A stretch of DNA of 47,266 nt from assembly GCA_020726335.1 (NCBI GenBank), contig DYSU01000010.1, positions 1 through 47,266 of the forward strand, in the 5' to 3' direction. This DNA is from Thiomargarita sp. GTDB taxonomy: Bacteria; Pseudomonadota; Gammaproteobacteria; Beggiatoales; Beggiatoaceae. A program made the translations under genes and the position numbers. Positions 1,069-40,574 of the stretch are shown piece by piece (position 1 is the first letter of the stretch; each line of letters starts with the position of its first letter). The notes beneath the pieces are model-generated. The model searched no databases and was not told where the DNA came from. It saw only the letters and a list, made by a program, of their open reading frames with translations.

Positions 1069-3840
1069 ATGAATAAATCGCATAAACCTTTGACCTTAAT
1101 CATTTTAGATGGTTGGGGTTATACTGAACACCATGAATACAACGCCATTTTTGAAGCCCACACGCCCACTTGGGATAGATTATGGCAAAACGCACCGCGC
1201 ACTTTTTTGCGTGCTTCAGGTGCTGAAGTGGGTTTGCCTGCCAATCAAATGGGTAATTCGGAAGTCGGTCATTTAAATTTGGGCACGGGCAGGGTGGTTT
1301 ATCAAGAATTCACCCGCATCAGCCGTTCCATCCGCACAGGTTCGTTTTTTACCAACCACACTTTAACCGATGCCGTTGATTTGGCTAAAGAAAAAGGCAG
1401 TGCGGTGCATATCATGGGCTTGTTGTCTTTAGGGGGCGTACACAGCCATGAAGACCATATTATAGCAATGGCTGAACTGGCGGCACAACGTGGTATCGAT
1501 AAAATTTATTTACACGCTTATACAGATGGCCGCGATACCCCGCCAAAAAGTGCCTCCAGCTCGATTCAACGGATGAATCAAGTGTTTAAACGCATAGGCA
1601 AAGGCCGTTTTGCTTCCCTCATTGGCCGTTATTATGCGATGGACAGGGACAACCGTTGGGAAAGGATACAAAAAGCCTATGATTTAATTGTCAACGGCCA
1701 AGCCGAATTTGAAGCCAATGACGCGATTAAGGCCTTGGAAATGGCTTATGAACGCGGTGAAACCGATGAATTTGTTCAAGCCACGGCGATTGTCAGCAAA
1801 AGCAAAAAGCGCGTCAGAATCAAAGATGATGATGTGGTGGTGTTCATGAACTTTCGTTCTGACCGCGCCCGCCAAATCACCCGTGCCTTTATTGAACCCA
1901 AATTTAATGAATTCAAACGCAGTTATGTGCCAAAAATCAGTCGCTTGGTCTGCTTAACTGAATACAAAAAGGAATTTGATGCGCCTGTGGCGTTTCCTTC
2001 TGAACGCTTGGAAAACGGCTTGGGCGAATACATCGCCGACAAAGGTTTGCGCCAACTGCGAATTGCTGAAACCGAAAAATATGCCCATGTGACATTTTTT
2101 TTCAACGGTGGCTCAGAAAAAATCTATGAAGGTGAAGACCGCATTTTGATTGATTCGCCCAAGGTCAAAACCTATGACCTCAAACCTGAAATGAGTGCCA
2201 AAAAAGTCACGGATAAACTCATCAAAGCGATGAAACGCACTTCAAATGACAAACCTTTTTACGATGTCATCATTTGCAATTATGCCAACAGCGACATGGT
2301 CGGCCACACAGGCAACATGGAAGCCGCGATTAAAGCGGTGGAATACATTGATTCTTGTCTGCAACAACTGATTAACACCGCCAATGAAATCGGTGCAGAG
2401 CTGTTGATCACCGCTGACCACGGCAATATCGAAAAAATGCGCGATTTAGAAACCGAACAACCGCACACCGCCCACACCACCAATTTGGTGCCGTTCATTT
2501 ATGTGGGCAATCGTGCGGTGGTGATGAATGACAAAGGCGTGTTATCGGATGTCGCGCCCACCATGCTCAGTTTAATGGGTTTGGAATCACCACGGCAAAT
2601 GACAGGGCGTTCGTTAATTGGCTTGCCAAAAGGCGACGTGCTGGAAAACCAAGGCATTGTCTATGGCATTACAGGCATCCATTTAGGTACAGCTTGCGCG
2701 GGGATTAAACAAACTGAACACGATGATTTGACTTTAATCAAAATCAACAGCGAAGCGCAAGTGGCGGCAGTGTTCACCCGCAATGATTTTTGCGCCGCGC
2801 CCGTGCAAATTGCCCGCCAACATCTGCAAGAAGCCACCCCACGCTTTTTGTTGATCAACTCAGGCAACGCCAATGCAGGCACAGGTCAACAAGGCATGGA
2901 TGACGCGCTGGCCTGTTGTCAAGCGGTTGCTGACCAAAACCATTGTAAAATCAACCAAGTGCTGCCCTTTTCCACGGGGGTGATTGGTCAGTATTTGCCC
3001 GTGGATAAAATCAACCCCGCGATTCCAAAAGCCCTGCGCAACGGTGATTGGCAACAAGCGGCCAAAGCCATCATGACCACCGACACCGTGGAAAAAATCG
3101 TATCCAGTCAAATCATGATTCAAGGCAAAACCGTCAACATCACAGGCATTGCCAAAGGCTCAGGCATGATTTGCCCTGACATGGCGACCCTGTTGGCGTT
3201 TATTGCCACCGATGCCAAAGTGAGCAAAAAATTACTGCAAACCTGTCTGCAACAAGCGGTCAACAAAAGCTTCAACCGCATCACCGTCGATGGCGACACC
3301 TCGACCAACGATGCCTGTGTATTGATTGCCACAGGCAAAGCGGGTCATACCTTGTTGGCAGATGAAAAAAACCCCGATTATCAACAACTTCAGCAAGCCA
3401 TCTCCCACAATTTTCAACAATTAGCGAAAATGATCATCCGTGACGGTGAAGGCGCGACCAAATTCATCACGGTTCAAGTGGCGCAAGGTCGTGATGAACG
3501 CGAATGCTTGAAAGTGGCCTATACCATTGCCCATTCACCCTTGGTTAAAACCGCATTTTTCGCCAGTGATGCCAACTGGGGGCGGATTTTAGCCGCCGTC
3601 GGGCGCAGTGGTTTGACCAGTTTTGATTTGCAGAAAGTCAAAATCTACTTAAACCATGTTTGTATTGTGGAAAACGCAGGCCGCGCCGCCCACTATACGG
3701 AAGAACAAGGCAAGGCCGTGATGCAAGAAACAGACATCACCATCAAAGTTTTATTGGGACGCGGTGAAGCCAACACCGAAATTTGGACAACAGACTTGTC
3801 GTATGATTATGTCAAAATCAATGCCGAATACCGCACTTAA
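1069..3840 (+). CDS. gpmI-argJ: GpmI-ArgJ fusion: phosphoglycerate mutase fused to glutamate N-acetyltransferase
   Basis: One uninterrupted 923-codon frame joins two complete enzymes. Residues 1 to about 520 are cofactor-independent phosphoglycerate mutase (3-PG to 2-PG in glycolysis): metal ligand Asp14 in 'LDGWG', the phospho-serine Ser64 in 'GNSEVGHLNLGTGR', 'HSHEDH' (125-130), 'TDGRD' (152-156), 'NYANSDMVGHTGN' (404-416), 'TADHGN' (448-453), ending at 'MTGRSL'. From about residue 530 it is ArgJ (ornithine/glutamate acetyltransferase, arginine biosynthesis): 'LINSGNANAGTGQQG', 'FSTGVIGQ', 'TTDTVEK', the self-cleavage motif 'GSGMICPDMATLL' with nucleophile Thr707, 'DGDTSTND', 'DGEGATKF', and the C-terminal 'YVKINAEYRT'. 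ArgJ normally cleaves before this Thr, which here would leave GpmI joined to the ArgJ alpha chain (1-706) plus a beta chain (707-923). The linker is under 12 residues. A GTG at 2638 with AAAAGG just upstream could start a separate ArgJ of about 400 residues. The stop overlaps the end of convergent ispD by 4 nt. Confidence 0.93.
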   Translation: MNKSHKPLTLIILDGWGYTEHHEYNAIFEAHTPTWDRLWQNAPRTFLRASGAEVGLPANQMGNSEVGHLNLGTGRVVYQEFTRISRSIRTGSFFTNHTLTDAVDLAKEKGSAVHIMGLLSLGGVHSHEDHIIAMAELAAQRGIDKIYLHAYTDGRDTPPKSASSSIQRMNQVFKRIGKGRFASLIGRYYAMDRDNRWERIQKAYDLIVNGQAEFEANDAIKALEMAYERGETDEFVQATAIVSKSKKRVRIKDDDVVVFMNFRSDRARQITRAFIEPKFNEFKRSYVPKISRLVCLTEYKKEFDAPVAFPSERLENGLGEYIADKGLRQLRIAETEKYAHVTFFFNGGSEKIYEGEDRILIDSPKVKTYDLKPEMSAKKVTDKLIKAMKRTSNDKPFYDVIICNYANSDMVGHTGNMEAAIKAVEYIDSCLQQLINTANEIGAELLITADHGNIEKMRDLETEQPHTAHTTNLVPFIYVGNRAVVMNDKGVLSDVAPTMLSLMGLESPRQMTGRSLIGLPKGDVLENQGIVYGITGIHLGTACAGIKQTEHDDLTLIKINSEAQVAAVFTRNDFCAAPVQIARQHLQEATPRFLLINSGNANAGTGQQGMDDALACCQAVADQNHCKINQVLPFSTGVIGQYLPVDKINPAIPKALRNGDWQQAAKAIMTTDTVEKIVSSQIMIQGKTVNITGIAKGSGMICPDMATLLAFIATDAKVSKKLLQTCLQQAVNKSFNRITVDGDTSTNDACVLIATGKAGHTLLADEKNPDYQQLQQAISHNFQQLAKMIIRDGEGATKFITVQVAQGRDERECLKVAYTIAHSPLVKTAFFASDANWGRILAAVGRSGLTSFDLQKVKIYLNHVCIVENAGRAAHYTEEQGKAVMQETDITIKVLLGRGEANTEIWTTDLSYDYVKINAEYRT

Positions 3841-9240: not shown

Positions 9241-9780
9241 GTGGTTATTTTTGCCTGTGGCAACCCCAGTCGCGGTGATGATGCGCTGGCTTTGTGTTTG
9301 GTTGATGGCTTGGCAGAAAGCCAAGCTCTGCAATTGATTTGTGATTTTCAACTGCAAATTGAACACACGCTGGATTTGGCGCAACAAGATTTGGCTTTGT
9401 TCATTGATGCCGACAGCCATTGTTTATCCGCCTGTCAACTGCAAGCGCTATCGCCCCAAGCCATGCCCGATTACAGCAGTCACAGCCTGCACCCCGCCAC
9501 CTTGTTGGGCATTTATCAACACCACCTCAAACAACCGCCGCCGCCCGCGTTTTTATTGCGCTTACGCGGCCAGCAGTTTGCGTTGGGAACAGGCTTAAGC
9601 GTGCAAGCGCAACAAACATTACAAACTGCGCGACCTTTGCTACAATCGTTATTGACCCAACCTTGCGTTCACTTTTGGCGACAACACTGCAATGAATTCA
9701 TTTATCCGTCAACTTCTGACCCCCAAACCCACAGCGACCGCGCTCATACCGCTGTTGCACGCGATTCAAGCGCGCTTTAA
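9241..9780 (+). CDS. hoxW: Hydrogenase maturation protease, HoxW-like
   Basis: Proteases of this family trim the C-terminus of the [NiFe]-hydrogenase large subunit after nickel insertion. The GTG at 9241 sits 5 nt after a near-perfect AGGAGG. 'ACGNPSRGDDALA' (5-17) is the family's G-N-x-x-R-G-D-D-x-x signature with the acidic nickel ligand; 'FIDADSH' (54-60) carries the Asp and 'HSLHPATLL' (81-89) the His block; 'FALGTGLS' (113-120) is the last conserved stretch. Normal family members end around residue 145-155. Here the frame runs to residue 179, with its last 29 or so codons overlapping hoxF by 89 nt, as if the original stop had been lost. No hydrogenase large subunit (its substrate) is in the window. 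Confidence 0.85.
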   Translation: MVIFACGNPSRGDDALALCLVDGLAESQALQLICDFQLQIEHTLDLAQQDLALFIDADSHCLSACQLQALSPQAMPDYSSHSLHPATLLGIYQHHLKQPPPPAFLLRLRGQQFALGTGLSVQAQQTLQTARPLLQSLLTQPCVHFWRQHCNEFIYPSTSDPQTHSDRAHTAVARDSSAL

Positions 9781-11332
9781 TTACCTGCCCGCGTTTGCGC
9801 TGGCCGCTTTGGCTGACGCTTTGCAGTGCAGTGTGGCAGAAATTCACAGCGTCAGCAGTTTTTATCATTTATTCAACCACAGCCCACGCGCTTATGACAT
9901 CCGTTTTAGCCACAACATCATTGAAATTTATCAAGGCAAAGCGGCTTTGATGCAACAACTGTTGGACGGCTTACAGCTCAAACAAGGCCAAGTACGCCCC
10001 GATTTACGGGTGTGCGTGGACAACACCTCTTGCATAGGCATGAGCGACCAAGGCATATCCGCGCTGGTCAATGGTTTACCCGTCACCCATTTGACCCCGG
10101 CGCGCATTACGCAAATGATTGAATTAATTGAACAAAGCATACCCATCAGCCAATGGCCCGCCACATTTTTTCAAATTGACCACAGGATTCAACACAAAAA
10201 CCGCTTATTAAACAGTCAGATAAAAGCGGGCGACGTGTTGACAAAACTCAGCGACAAGGCGCAGATGTGGCAAACCCTGCAACAGGCAGGCATTCGCGGT
10301 TGTGGCGGTGCGGGTTTTCCCGTGTATCAAAAATGGCGGCTGTGTCAGGCAACGCCTGCCAAACAGCGCATCATCGTTTGCAATGCCGATGAAGGTGAGC
10401 CTGCGACCTTCAAAGATCGCGTTTTATTGAGCGATTATCCCGAATGGGTGATTGAAGGCATGACCATTGCCGCCCAATTAATTGAAGCGAATCAAGGATT
10501 TATTTATCTGCGCGGCGAATACCGTTATTTATTGCCCATGCTGGAAGCCGTGTTGGCGCAACGGCGGCGGTTGGGCTTATTGGGGCCAGCCGCAGGGTTT
10601 GATATTCAAATTTATTTGGGTGCGGGCGCGTATGTTTGCGGCGCAGAAACGGCCTTGCTCAATTCGCTGGAAGGTCAGCGCGGCATACCGCGTGCCGTGC
10701 CACCGTATCCCGTCAACCACGGCTATTTGGGTTGGCCAACGGTGGTCAACAACGTTGAAACCTTGGCGCAAGTGACCTTGGCGTTTTTAATCGGCGGGCA
10801 ACACTTTGCCCAAATCGGCACGGCAGCCAGCAAAGGCACCAAATTATTCAGCGTCAGCGGTGATTGTCAGGCTGGCATTTATGAACTGCCGTTTGGCACT
10901 ACAGTGGCCGAGCTGTTGGCGTTGGCAAACGCAACCGAAGTGCAAGCGGTGCAAAATGCAGGCGCGGCAGGACAACTGCTTTTGTCGCCAGATTTTCACC
11001 GCCGTTTTTGTTTCGATGATGTGGCCAGCACAGGTTCGTTCATGGTGTTCAATCGCCAGCGCGATTTGTCGGCCATGGTGGCCAATTTTGCCCAATTTTT
11101 TGCCGCTGAAAGCTGTGGTTTTTGCACGCCGTGCCGCGTCGGCACCCGTTTGATGGCCAAAACAGTGGAAAAAATCCAAGCAGGTCAAGGCCATGCACGC
11201 GATGTGGACGATTTAACCGACCTTTGCCACTTGTTGCGCCACCACAGCCATTGCGGTTTGGGCAGCAGTGCGGGCAATCACATCCGCGACACCTTGACGC
11301 AACGCCCTGATTTATATCCATTAAAAGCTTAA
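9692..11332 (+). CDS. hoxF: NAD-reducing hydrogenase diaphorase subunit HoxF
   Basis: HoxF oxidises or reduces NAD(H) with FMN and an Fe-S cluster in the cytoplasmic bidirectional hydrogenase. Residues 1-150 are the NuoE-like half, starting colinear with Ralstonia HoxF ('IRQLL', 'SSFYHLF'); as in that protein the second cluster motif reads CIGMS (114-118), not CxxxC, so no [2Fe-2S] is expected there. Residues about 180-546 are the NuoF-like half: glycine-rich 'GCGGAGFP' (203-210) and 'NADEGEPATFKDR' for FMN/NAD, 'GAGAYVCGAETALLNSLEG', and the [4Fe-4S] ligands Cys475, 478, 481 and 521 in 'ESCGFCTPC' and 'HCGLGSS'. Length 546 against about 600 in Ralstonia. The usual partners hoxU, hoxY and hoxH are absent; a decaheme cytochrome follows 5 nt downstream. 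Confidence 0.92.
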   Translation: MNSFIRQLLTPKPTATALIPLLHAIQARFNYLPAFALAALADALQCSVAEIHSVSSFYHLFNHSPRAYDIRFSHNIIEIYQGKAALMQQLLDGLQLKQGQVRPDLRVCVDNTSCIGMSDQGISALVNGLPVTHLTPARITQMIELIEQSIPISQWPATFFQIDHRIQHKNRLLNSQIKAGDVLTKLSDKAQMWQTLQQAGIRGCGGAGFPVYQKWRLCQATPAKQRIIVCNADEGEPATFKDRVLLSDYPEWVIEGMTIAAQLIEANQGFIYLRGEYRYLLPMLEAVLAQRRRLGLLGPAAGFDIQIYLGAGAYVCGAETALLNSLEGQRGIPRAVPPYPVNHGYLGWPTVVNNVETLAQVTLAFLIGGQHFAQIGTAASKGTKLFSVSGDCQAGIYELPFGTTVAELLALANATEVQAVQNAGAAGQLLLSPDFHRRFCFDDVASTGSFMVFNRQRDLSAMVANFAQFFAAESCGFCTPCRVGTRLMAKTVEKIQAGQGHARDVDDLTDLCHLLRHHSHCGLGSSAGNHIRDTLTQRPDLYPLKA

Positions 11333-37865: not shown

Positions 37866-37894
37866 TTGGCACAATTTTCTAACTTGGTTAAAAT
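37866..37894 (+). promoter_or_regulatory. Sigma-70 promoter for leuD
   Basis: TTGGCA (37866-37871), 17-nt spacer, TAAAAT (37889-37894), which is five of six consensus bases in each box with ideal spacing. Transcription would begin near 37901, about 23 nt before the leuD ATG. It faces away from the gcvT -10 box 12 nt upstream. Confidence 0.62.
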
Positions 37895-37923: not shown

Positions 37924-38568
37924 ATGCAAGCTTTCACAACCTTAACTGCGGTGGTTGCGCCATTGGACCGTGTCAATGTTGACACGGATGCCATTATTCC
38001 CAAACAATTTTTAAAGTCGATTAAACGCACGGGGTTTGGGGCTAATCTGTTTGATGAATGGCGGTATTTGGATGTGGGCGAGCCTGAGCAAGGTTGTGAC
38101 CAACGGCCAAAAAACCTTGATTTTGTGTTAAACCAACCCGTTTATCAGCAGGCACAAATTTTATTGACCCGCAAAAATTTTGGCTGTGGCTCCAGCCGTG
38201 AACACGCACCATGGGCGTTGCTGGATTTTGGCTTTCGCGCCATCATCGCCCCCAGTTTTGCCGATATTTTTTATAATAATTGTTTTAAAAACGGGATTTT
38301 GCCAATCGTGCTGACTGAAGCGCAAGTGGATGATTTGTTTCAACACGTTTATCAGCACAGCGGCTATTGTGTGACGGTTGATTTGCCACGGCAACAAATT
38401 CAAGACAACGCAGGTTTGGTTTGGTCGTTTGCAGTGGATGAATTTAAAAAAACTTGTTTGTTGCACGGTTTGGATGATATCAGCTTGACTTTGCAACAGG
38501 CGGACAGAATTTTAGCCTATGAACAACAAGCCAAACAGCGCACGCCTTGGCTTTTTAGCACCCATTAG
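37924..38568 (+). CDS. leuD: 3-isopropylmalate dehydratase small subunit
   Basis: Swivelling-domain subunit of isopropylmalate isomerase, which acts with the Fe-S subunit LeuC in leucine synthesis. '[27 protein letters not shown]' is the N-terminal signature; '[30 protein letters not shown]' is the conserved substrate-binding block with G-S-S-R-E-H; '[19 protein letters not shown]' follows. 214 residues. Neither leuC nor leuB is adjacent, and leuA lies 22 kb away, so the leucine genes are dispersed. It has its own promoter and is followed by a hybrid kinase gene after 8 nt. Confidence 0.97.
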
Positions 38569-38576
38569 GGACGGTT

Positions 38577-40574
38577 ATGCGCCTGCGTCGCCAACTGTAT
38601 TGGATTCTCAGCGGTTTTTTTGTGGTGATTATGCTGGCTTGGTCGGGATTGTTATGGTTGTTTGAGCAAGGGCAAGAACAGACACTGATGGCACAAAGCC
38701 AAACCATTTTGATGACAATATTGCATTACCGCACCCGCTTTGAAAATATGTTGGCTTTGCCGCAAGCACAGCAACAACGGGTTTTTGCCAATTTATTGCC
38801 TGAAGTCGAAAGCAAAAAAAAAATGCTGTCTATCGCTTTGTTTGACCACAAACAGCGGTTGTTATACGCCTCCCATTCCCAAGAAGACGCTTTATTGGTG
38901 TTGAACAATTACCAACGACCCGTTTATGGTTTGGGCTTGATTTTGAATGAAAGATGGCTAAAACAAGCTGTTTTGACTTACCTCACCCCGTTAAAAAACA
39001 ACAATGACCACACAGCTTACTTAAAAATTCGCTTTGTTGTTAATAAGTTACCGCAATCATATGATTATGTTTGGTTGGTCAGCATCGGCTTTTTTTTGAT
39101 TTTAGCCGTGGTACTGGCCACGGGCTATTTCAGACTGCGCCATGTGTTTGAATCGCCTTTGAACCAATTGCGCCAAGCGTTGGCCCACGTTAAAGTACAC
39201 GATATGGGTGTTGAGCATGACTTTGGCCATCAGCCATCGGCGTTGTTGGAATTACAATCTATTCAACAGCAATTGGCGGCATTATTAGAGACTGTAGAGG
39301 ATAAATTACAAAAACTAGAGAATAAAAACAATAACTTAGTTAATGAAATTCAACAACGTATCCAACTGCTGGAGCAACAAAGTAAAACCATCGCCGATTT
39401 AGAGTTGAATTTGCAAACGGTCAAACAAAACAATCACAGTATGCTGTTGGCGCAAAGTGAATTCACCGCCAACATCAGCCAACAATTGCGCACCCCAATG
39501 AATGCCATTTTGGGCATGGTTGAAATGTTATTGGCAAGTGAAGTCACTGAAACAGTGTGCCAACAGTTGGAAGTCATTCAGGAAGGCAGCCAACAAGTGC
39601 ATCAAATCATTGAAAACCTCATGACCTTATCAACCATTGAATCGGGTAATCTGCATTTTAAAAATCAATCCTTTGATTTACAACGCTTATTGCAACAGGT
39701 TGTGATGCAAGCCCATGTGCCTGCGGATAAAAAATTGATTCCGATTGAAATTGAATTCAATGAGACCCAGCCAAGCCGCTTGCGTGGCGATGTTGAACGC
39801 ATTCAAAATATTTTGGCTGTGTTGCTCAACCATGCGTTGATGCTCACTCAACAAGCGGCGATTCGTTTGCAGGTCAAAGCCAAAGCCAAAGACGCGCACT
39901 ATACCCAGTTAAAATTCATGATCAGCTATCAAGGCAACCTCATCAAAGAAAAGAATAAAGTGTTGTTTTTTTCAGAAACGGGGCGGTTTAATTTTTTTAA
40001 TTTCAAGCTGAAAAACTCGGAGTTGGATTTGACCATGTGCCATCAATTGGCGCAATTGATGGGCGGTAAAATCGGCTTTGATTCACAACAAAACCAGCAT
40101 TGTTTGTGGCTAAAATTGTTGTTGCCCATCAGCCAAAGCCCTGACAAAACAAAAAAAATACTGTTGCCTGTCCGCTCTGTGCATGATTTTCAGCAACGGC
40201 ACATTTTATTGGTGGAAGACAATTATACCAATCAATTGGTGGCCAAGCTGATGTTGGAAAAATTGGGTTGTAGGGTAACTTTGGCCAACAACGGCGAAGA
40301 AGCGTTGGCTTTGTATCAAAATCAAAATTTTGATTTGATTTTAATGGATGTGCAAATGCCTGTGATGGATGGTTTAAATGCCACGAAAAAAATTCGGGAA
40401 CAAGAGCGTTTAAACGGCAAACACCACACCATCATCGCCATCACCGCCAATGCGCTACAACAGGATAAACAACAGTGTTTTGATGTGGGCATGGATGATT
40501 TTTTGGCCAAGCCCATCAGTCAACAATCATTGGTGCAATTGCTGGATAAATGGGTGTTGCAAAAAGCCGCTTAA
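38577..40574 (+). CDS. Hybrid histidine kinase with degenerate kinase core and intact receiver
   Basis: A 665-residue inner-membrane sensor in the layout of BarA-type hybrids. Two transmembrane helices (about 9-29 and 164-184) enclose a periplasmic sensor of about 130 residues, followed by a HAMP-like stretch and a coiled coil (about 225-290). The dimerisation/phospho-acceptor helix reads 'ANISQQLRTPMNAILGM', with Gln302 where the phosphorylated histidine of S-H-E-L-R-T-P belongs. The ATPase part is recognisable but its N-box reads 'LLNHALMLT' (His419 for the Asn) and the D-x-G-x-G loop is missing. The receiver (541-660) is complete: Glu547/Asp548, phospho-acceptor Asp591 in 'LMDVQMPVMDG', Thr623 and Lys645. 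No Hpt domain follows. It is probably a pseudokinase signalling through its receiver, possibly with a partner kinase. Confidence 0.9.
   Translation: MRLRRQLYWILSGFFVVIMLAWSGLLWLFEQGQEQTLMAQSQTILMTILHYRTRFENMLALPQAQQQRVFANLLPEVESKKKMLSIALFDHKQRLLYASHSQEDALLVLNNYQRPVYGLGLILNERWLKQAVLTYLTPLKNNNDHTAYLKIRFVVNKLPQSYDYVWLVSIGFFLILAVVLATGYFRLRHVFESPLNQLRQALAHVKVHDMGVEHDFGHQPSALLELQSIQQQLAALLETVEDKLQKLENKNNNLVNEIQQRIQLLEQQSKTIADLELNLQTVKQNNHSMLLAQSEFTANISQQLRTPMNAILGMVEMLLASEVTETVCQQLEVIQEGSQQVHQIIENLMTLSTIESGNLHFKNQSFDLQRLLQQVVMQAHVPADKKLIPIEIEFNETQPSRLRGDVERIQNILAVLLNHALMLTQQAAIRLQVKAKAKDAHYTQLKFMISYQGNLIKEKNKVLFFSETGRFNFFNFKLKNSELDLTMCHQLAQLMGGKIGFDSQQNQHCLWLKLLLPISQSPDKTKKILLPVRSVHDFQQRHILLVEDNYTNQLVAKLMLEKLGCRVTLANNGEEALALYQNQNFDLILMDVQMPVMDGLNATKKIREQERLNGKHHTIIAITANALQQDKQQCFDVGMDDFLAKPISQQSLVQLLDKWVLQKAA

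Follow-up and report, generated by a model that had tools for sequence, protein, structure and literature searches.

Described degenerate histidine kinases

In kinases of the HisKA family, the acidic residue beside the phospho-accepting His serves kinase activity only, and a Thr or Asn residue serves phosphatase activity only (PMC3510030). In RetS of Pseudomonas aeruginosa, the HATPase domain is degenerate and the receiver takes phosphate from the His of GacS; RetS can also take phosphate from HptB, and its core inhibits GacS (PMC5992135). DivL of Caulobacter crescentus is a HisKA-type pseudokinase in which the His is replaced; it has no autokinase activity, and its core is reused to sense a phosphorylated regulator (PMC4211667). 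In C. crescentus, the hybrid kinase CCNA_03265 (CC3162) is described as lacking the conserved His and keeping the receiver Asp; it came up in a biofilm screen, and either an Hpt donor or a heterodimer was proposed for it (PMC11481889). Finally, a ChrS pseudokinase alters the output of its partner system, and ChrS-HrrS heterodimers form (PMC9491836).

The window analyzed here, a stretch of 47,266 nucleotides from Thiomargarita sp., holds at positions 38577 to 40574 (+ strand) a gene whose 665-aa product, hereafter the pseudokinase, has the layout of a hybrid histidine kinase by its reading frame, translation, and Pfam domains. It combines a kinase half that has lost its catalytic motifs with a single complete receiver.

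Domain layout and predicted structure

By Pfam and AlphaFold, the domains follow the order of an active hybrid kinase (HisKA, HATPase_c, receiver), with the HATPase_c domain in its place and scoring below the Pfam cut-off. All features of the gene given below are on the + strand. At the N terminus, AlphaFold predicts a helix over residues 2 to 59 (38580 to 38753), which would comprise a membrane helix, placed by a hydrophobic stretch in the sequence, and an extension. It is followed by a putative extracytoplasmic sensor (residues 63 to 155; 38763 to 39041) with a predicted PDC/Cache-like fold. Pfam gave no match in this region; the AlphaFold model of the sensor, built from an input of four sequences only, has a mean pLDDT of 69.7, and the Foldseek matches, to the sensor domains of WalK, CqsR, KinD, and CitA, are weak. 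A relative of the sensor region in another genome (L142:655-2316, genome G018) is joined to what looks by eye like a PP2C/RsbU-type phosphatase, and this sensor type is, therefore, apparently not tied to kinases.

The second membrane helix probably covers about residues 162 to 187 (39060 to 39137), the hydrophobic part of a longer AlphaFold helix (residues 162 to 204), and leads into a linker and coiled coil delimited with Pfam and AlphaFold (residues 188 to 291; 39138 to 39449). A HAMP domain was not recognized by Pfam in this linker, although Pfam finds HAMP in relatives. Compared to the full-length relative L032, the length of the linker has changed by about -14 and +7 residues, which are heptad multiples, possibly by chance.

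The HisKA (DHp) domain (residues 292 to 357; 39450 to 39647) has kept its fold and matches PF00512 with 63.2 bits. The degenerate HATPase_c (CA) domain (residues 358 to 518; 39648 to 40130), delimited by its sub-cut-off Pfam match, the conservation count, and AlphaFold, reaches 21.9 bits against a cut-off of 26.4 bits, the lowest score among the 40 HATPase_c matches of its genome. The receiver (residues 541 to 660; 40197 to 40556) is intact by Pfam, conservation count, and structural match, with a Response_reg match of 101 bits over residues 543 to 656. AlphaFold modeled the DHp, CA, and receiver domains at good to high confidence, and the ATP lid alone (about residues 455 to 478) was poorly defined or disordered. 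Among solved kinase cores, those of GacS and RetS, with ShkA, are nearest in both sequence and fold, and the best structural match of the receiver is the D1 receiver of GacS (Z 22.8, rmsd 1.6, 126 residues).

Loss of the kinase motifs and retention of the receiver site

Alignment to two full-length intact relatives showed changes in the H-, N-, G1, and G2 boxes. The H-box, SHELRTP in the relatives, reads SQQLRTP in the pseudokinase, with Gln302-Gln303 (39480 to 39485) in place of the phospho-acceptor His and the catalytic Glu, and the N-box has changed from NLVSNAIKFT to VLLNHALMLT, with one Asn replaced by Val and the other by His (residues 415 to 419; 39819 to 39833); alignments to GacS and RetS gave the same result for both boxes. 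The G1 box, DTGIGI in the relatives, has become SYQGNLI (D-x-G-x-G to Y-Q-G-N at residues 451 to 454; 39927 to 39938), and the G2 box has gone from GGTGLGL to LKNSELDL (GTGLG to NSELD at residues 480 to 484; 40014 to 40028). The catalytic losses include H302, E303, N415, N419, K422, D451, G454, G480, G482, and G484, while the positions that were kept (F296, A298, R305, T306, P307, G404, D405, L483, M495, and G497) are largely structural. Among the latter, Thr306 (39492 to 39494) is the position that has been linked to the phosphatase activity of HisKA kinases (PMC3510030). In the receiver, the active site is complete, with the acid pair E547 and D548, the phospho-accepting D591, T623, and K645.

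A first-pass annotation, made from the window sequence, had described a pseudokinase with His replaced by Gln302, the N-box Asn replaced by His419, no D-x-G-x-G loop, and the five receiver residues retained. Its reading frame, coordinates, and every residue that it named agree with the translation, and each of the three losses, as well as the retained receiver site, was confirmed here. Its list of losses was correct and too short, as it missed those of Glu303, the N-box Asn at 415, Lys422, and every Gly in the G2 box.

The annotation had also stated that it would be refuted by a structure-based alignment moving an intact His and N-box into the active positions. This did not happen, and the alignments kept the dead residues there. 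Scanning the sequence from H287 to H341 turned up no further His, so that no realignment can restore the phospho-acceptor. At the N-box, the alignment is gap-free between R408 and A420/T424, which holds the register although Asn418 adjoins the dead position. Furthermore, phmmer comparisons with RetS and GacS and the structural alignment (RetS residues 420 to 641, GacS residues 221 to 512) differ by no more than about one residue. With the phospho-acceptor and the catalytic Glu gone and no nucleotide-binding box left, the protein should be unable to autophosphorylate by the known mechanism, and there is good support for its prediction as a pseudokinase that retains a working receiver.

Conservation of the receiver compared to the kinase core

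For a leave-one-out count, we compared 49 hybrid kinases (the pseudokinase and 48 intact relatives) at the positions that show at least 90% conservation among the others. In the HisKA domain, the pseudokinase keeps 11 of 17 such positions and loses 6 (identity z = -4.0 against the 48 relatives), and in the HATPase domain, it keeps 14 of 30 and loses 16 (z = -7.6), whereas all other sequences in the set keep at least 82% of the conserved HisKA and HATPase positions. Divergence as strong as that of the CA domain was seen in the sensor, the linker, and the unrecognized HAMP. All 18 conserved positions of the receiver are kept (z = +0.6), with a mean identity to the relatives of 0.473 compared to an average of 0.456, and the receiver shares 57% identity with that of L032, compared to 60% between L032 and the intact relative L036.

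The losses are many scattered substitutions, without a frameshift; they fall among these highly conserved positions and none of them lies in the receiver. They come neither from chance nor from sequencing error, in line with the earlier view that a single sequencing error is not behind them. The comparison shows a receiver that, judged by its sequence, is constrained to the same degree as those of active hybrid kinases, with the reservation that hybrid kinases in general conserve their receivers and that a recent loss would not show there yet.

Relatives and gene neighborhood

In a receiver tree with few columns for its number of rows, the pseudokinase was placed as sister to intact hybrid kinases from two genomes of the same family (L033 and L034; support 99/87), in a clade shared with L032 and L036, the only relatives that match it over the full length. 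All four keep the His, N-box, G1, and G2. Of the retrieved relatives whose kinase core could be scored, 131 have no motif loss and 2 have one. The first-pass annotation had suggested a search for relatives with the same losses, and this came back empty: no ortholog in the dead form turned up in 42 family genomes, in 369 genomes from the class (searched at E up to 1e-60), or among the best 80 loci of a species-wide scan. As each of the nearest relatives is an intact kinase, the catalytic loss appears, as far as sampled, to be specific to the pseudokinase lineage.

Directly upstream lies leuD (37924 to 38568, + strand; Pfam Aconitase_C), with 8 nt between its stop and the pseudokinase start, and the two genes are probably cotranscribed; a promoter-like site upstream of leuD (37866 to 37894) is a consensus match only. 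There was no sign that leuD belongs to a signaling function, the leuD-pseudokinase adjacency was not found in relatives, and none of the window genes tested has a counterpart among the gene neighbors of the relatives. With leuD as the upstream neighbor, no partner gene adjoins the pseudokinase. It was also noted that L032 and L036 adjoin a gene resembling, by eye, a LivJ-type binding protein, and that none adjoins the pseudokinase.

Two fused reading frames were seen elsewhere in the window. A 923-aa ORF at 1069 to 3840 (+ strand) joins phosphoglycerate mutase (GpmI, residues 1 to 517) to ArgJ (residues 532 to 923); no match spanning this junction was found in the other 41 family genomes, where the matched frames were of single-gene length. 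At 9692 to 11332 (+ strand), homologs of NuoE and NuoF are fused in an ORF of 546 aa.

Degenerate kinases and Hpt proteins across the genome

The draft genome comprises 88 contigs (2.1 Mb, 96.8% complete), and absences from it are provisional. Of the 32 HisKA kinases scored in it, five have lost at least two out of five catalytic motifs, compared to 0/35 and 0/47 (in total 0/82) in the genomes of two relatives, an enrichment with a one-sided Fisher value of 0.0014 at a cut that was chosen after seeing the data and with comparison counts that leave out a few fragmentary matches.

Besides the pseudokinase, the degenerate set holds L029 (contig C81), L030 (C59), L024 (C84), and L019 (C41). L029:586-2937 is a second hybrid pseudokinase, with His changed to Gln, the N-box Asn to Tyr, and G1 and G2 lost; its receiver Asp is replaced by Asn, and its homologs across the family all keep the His. 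In L029, both halves are thus dead, whereas in the 38577-40574 protein, it is the transmitter alone. L030:1051-2127 is a REC-HK that has lost the H-box His and has His for the N-box Asn, L024:982-2193 has lost N, G1, and G2 and kept the His, and L019:325-2202 is a CHASE-sensor kinase with degenerate G1 and G2.

As potential phosphate donors, the genome has five stand-alone Hpt ORFs (on C42, C14, C46, C64, and C13) and three kinases with an Hpt of their own (on C20, C39, and C59). CsrA is present. A GacA-type regulator was not found in the genome, although it could lie in the missing part, and the sole LuxR-type regulator found looks, by eye, FixJ-like; a RetS-GacS-GacA circuit, therefore, seems less likely.

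It could be speculated, although we consider it improbable, that several kinases of this lineage were converted independently, two by the change of His to Gln and others via loss of the ATP boxes, and were retained as noncatalytic inputs that share fewer active kinases and free Hpt proteins, in a network acting through receivers or heterodimers.

A receiver probably fed in trans, and competing explanations

On balance, we lean toward a membrane-bound hybrid histidine pseudokinase in which the dead core acts as a scaffold, Asp591 is phosphorylated in trans, and the protein tunes another phosphorelay. The DHp/CA core would then serve for dimerization and signal transmission, and Asp591 would receive phosphate either from the phospho-His of a partner kinase, within a heterodimer or siphoned off as RetS does from GacS, or from a phosphorylated free Hpt protein. 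The sensor would set the amount of phosphate that is drained or stored, and the protein would for that reason tune another phosphorelay rather than start one. The first-pass annotation had likewise proposed phosphorylation by another kinase or heterodimerization with a partner. Either mechanism would fit the anatomy of the protein and the precedents of RetS (PMC5992135) and CC3162 (PMC11481889). The genome check for a partner, which the annotation had also suggested, gave candidate donors in the five stand-alone Hpt ORFs and three Hpt-bearing kinases without identifying one as the partner.

The main functional rival to the trans-fed receiver, which we favor, is heterodimerization: the dead DHp/CA core would pair with an active kinase and block or alter its autophosphorylation, as in mechanism 3 of RetS or with the ChrS pseudokinase, and the receiver would be secondary. 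In its favor, catalysis has been lost while the DHp and CA folds were kept, and a frameshifted ChrS pseudokinase, from a system in which ChrS-HrrS heterodimers form, alters the in vivo output (PMC9491836). GacS and RetS, with ShkA, being the closest solved cores also points this way, but such similarity is common to hybrid kinases in general. Moreover, the DHp domain has diverged (z = -4.0) and the receiver has not, which suggests that selection is strongest on the receiver, and we regard a regulator acting by heterodimerization as possible but doubtful.

Alternatively, the gene may be decaying, with a recent loss of kinase function in a small genome and decay of the receiver yet to come. At 2.1 Mb, the genome is small compared to the 3 to 8 Mb of most sampled family relatives, it has five degenerate HisKA kinases, one of them also without its receiver Asp, and the strong divergence of sensor and linker would fit a fading function as well. 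Size is insufficient as an explanation, however, as a relative of 2.3 Mb has 0/47 degenerate kinases. In the pseudokinase, catalytic positions were hit and structural ones spared, and no slippage is seen in the identity of the receiver. The ORF is also intact: in a simulation in which the extra divergence of the CA domain was neutral, rough in that it used one mutation model and left frameshifts out, about 4 stop codons were expected, and the chance of none, as observed, was about 0.02. Decay is, therefore, an unlikely account of this gene.

The retention of Thr306 of the E-x-x-T motif raised a further explanation, namely, that the dead core is a phosphatase-only regulator that may strip phosphate off a partner receiver. 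The residue lost beside the His is the one that serves kinase activity only and the one kept serves phosphatase activity only, and RetS dephosphorylates GacS through this Thr (PMC5992135). On the other hand, Thr306 sits within the structural RTP motif and may be kept for the fold, RetS has kept the His and Glu that are missing here, and active conformations are doubtful with a degenerate CA domain; we consider a phosphatase-only role very improbable. Lastly, a misalignment or assembly artifact masking an active kinase, conceivable in a draft of 88 contigs, can practically be discounted given the scattered substitutions without a frameshift, the absence of His from residues 288 to 340, the N-box spacing pinned by R408 and A420/T424, and the concordant sequence and structure alignments.

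The pseudokinase shows the halves of a hybrid kinase cleanly separated in nature, with a transmitter dead by every motif and a fully constrained receiver. Should the receiver be shown to be fed in trans, the protein would lend itself as a simple test of how sensory input passes from dead kinases into a phosphorelay. As degenerate kinases appear to be enriched in this one small genome, the question of decay versus rewiring can also be asked.

Comparison with known systems

Like RetS, the pseudokinase is a membrane hybrid sensor with a degenerate HATPase domain, and the RetS core is among its closest solved structures. In RetS, however, the HExxT box and N-box Asn are retained and there are two receivers, whereas the pseudokinase has QQLRT at residues 302 to 306, has lost the Asn, and carries one receiver. 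DivL is only a distant match. It has Tyr in place of the His and, in its described architecture of PAS domains and kinase core, no receiver; the pseudokinase has one, and the Tyr (or Ala) of the DivL family is not found at its His position, which is occupied by Gln302. With CC3162, as described, the pseudokinase shares the loss of the His and the retained receiver Asp. The 38577-40574 protein thus joins the already known pseudokinases of the RetS, DivL, and CC3162 kind, and the number of degenerate kinases in its genome is the more unusual feature.
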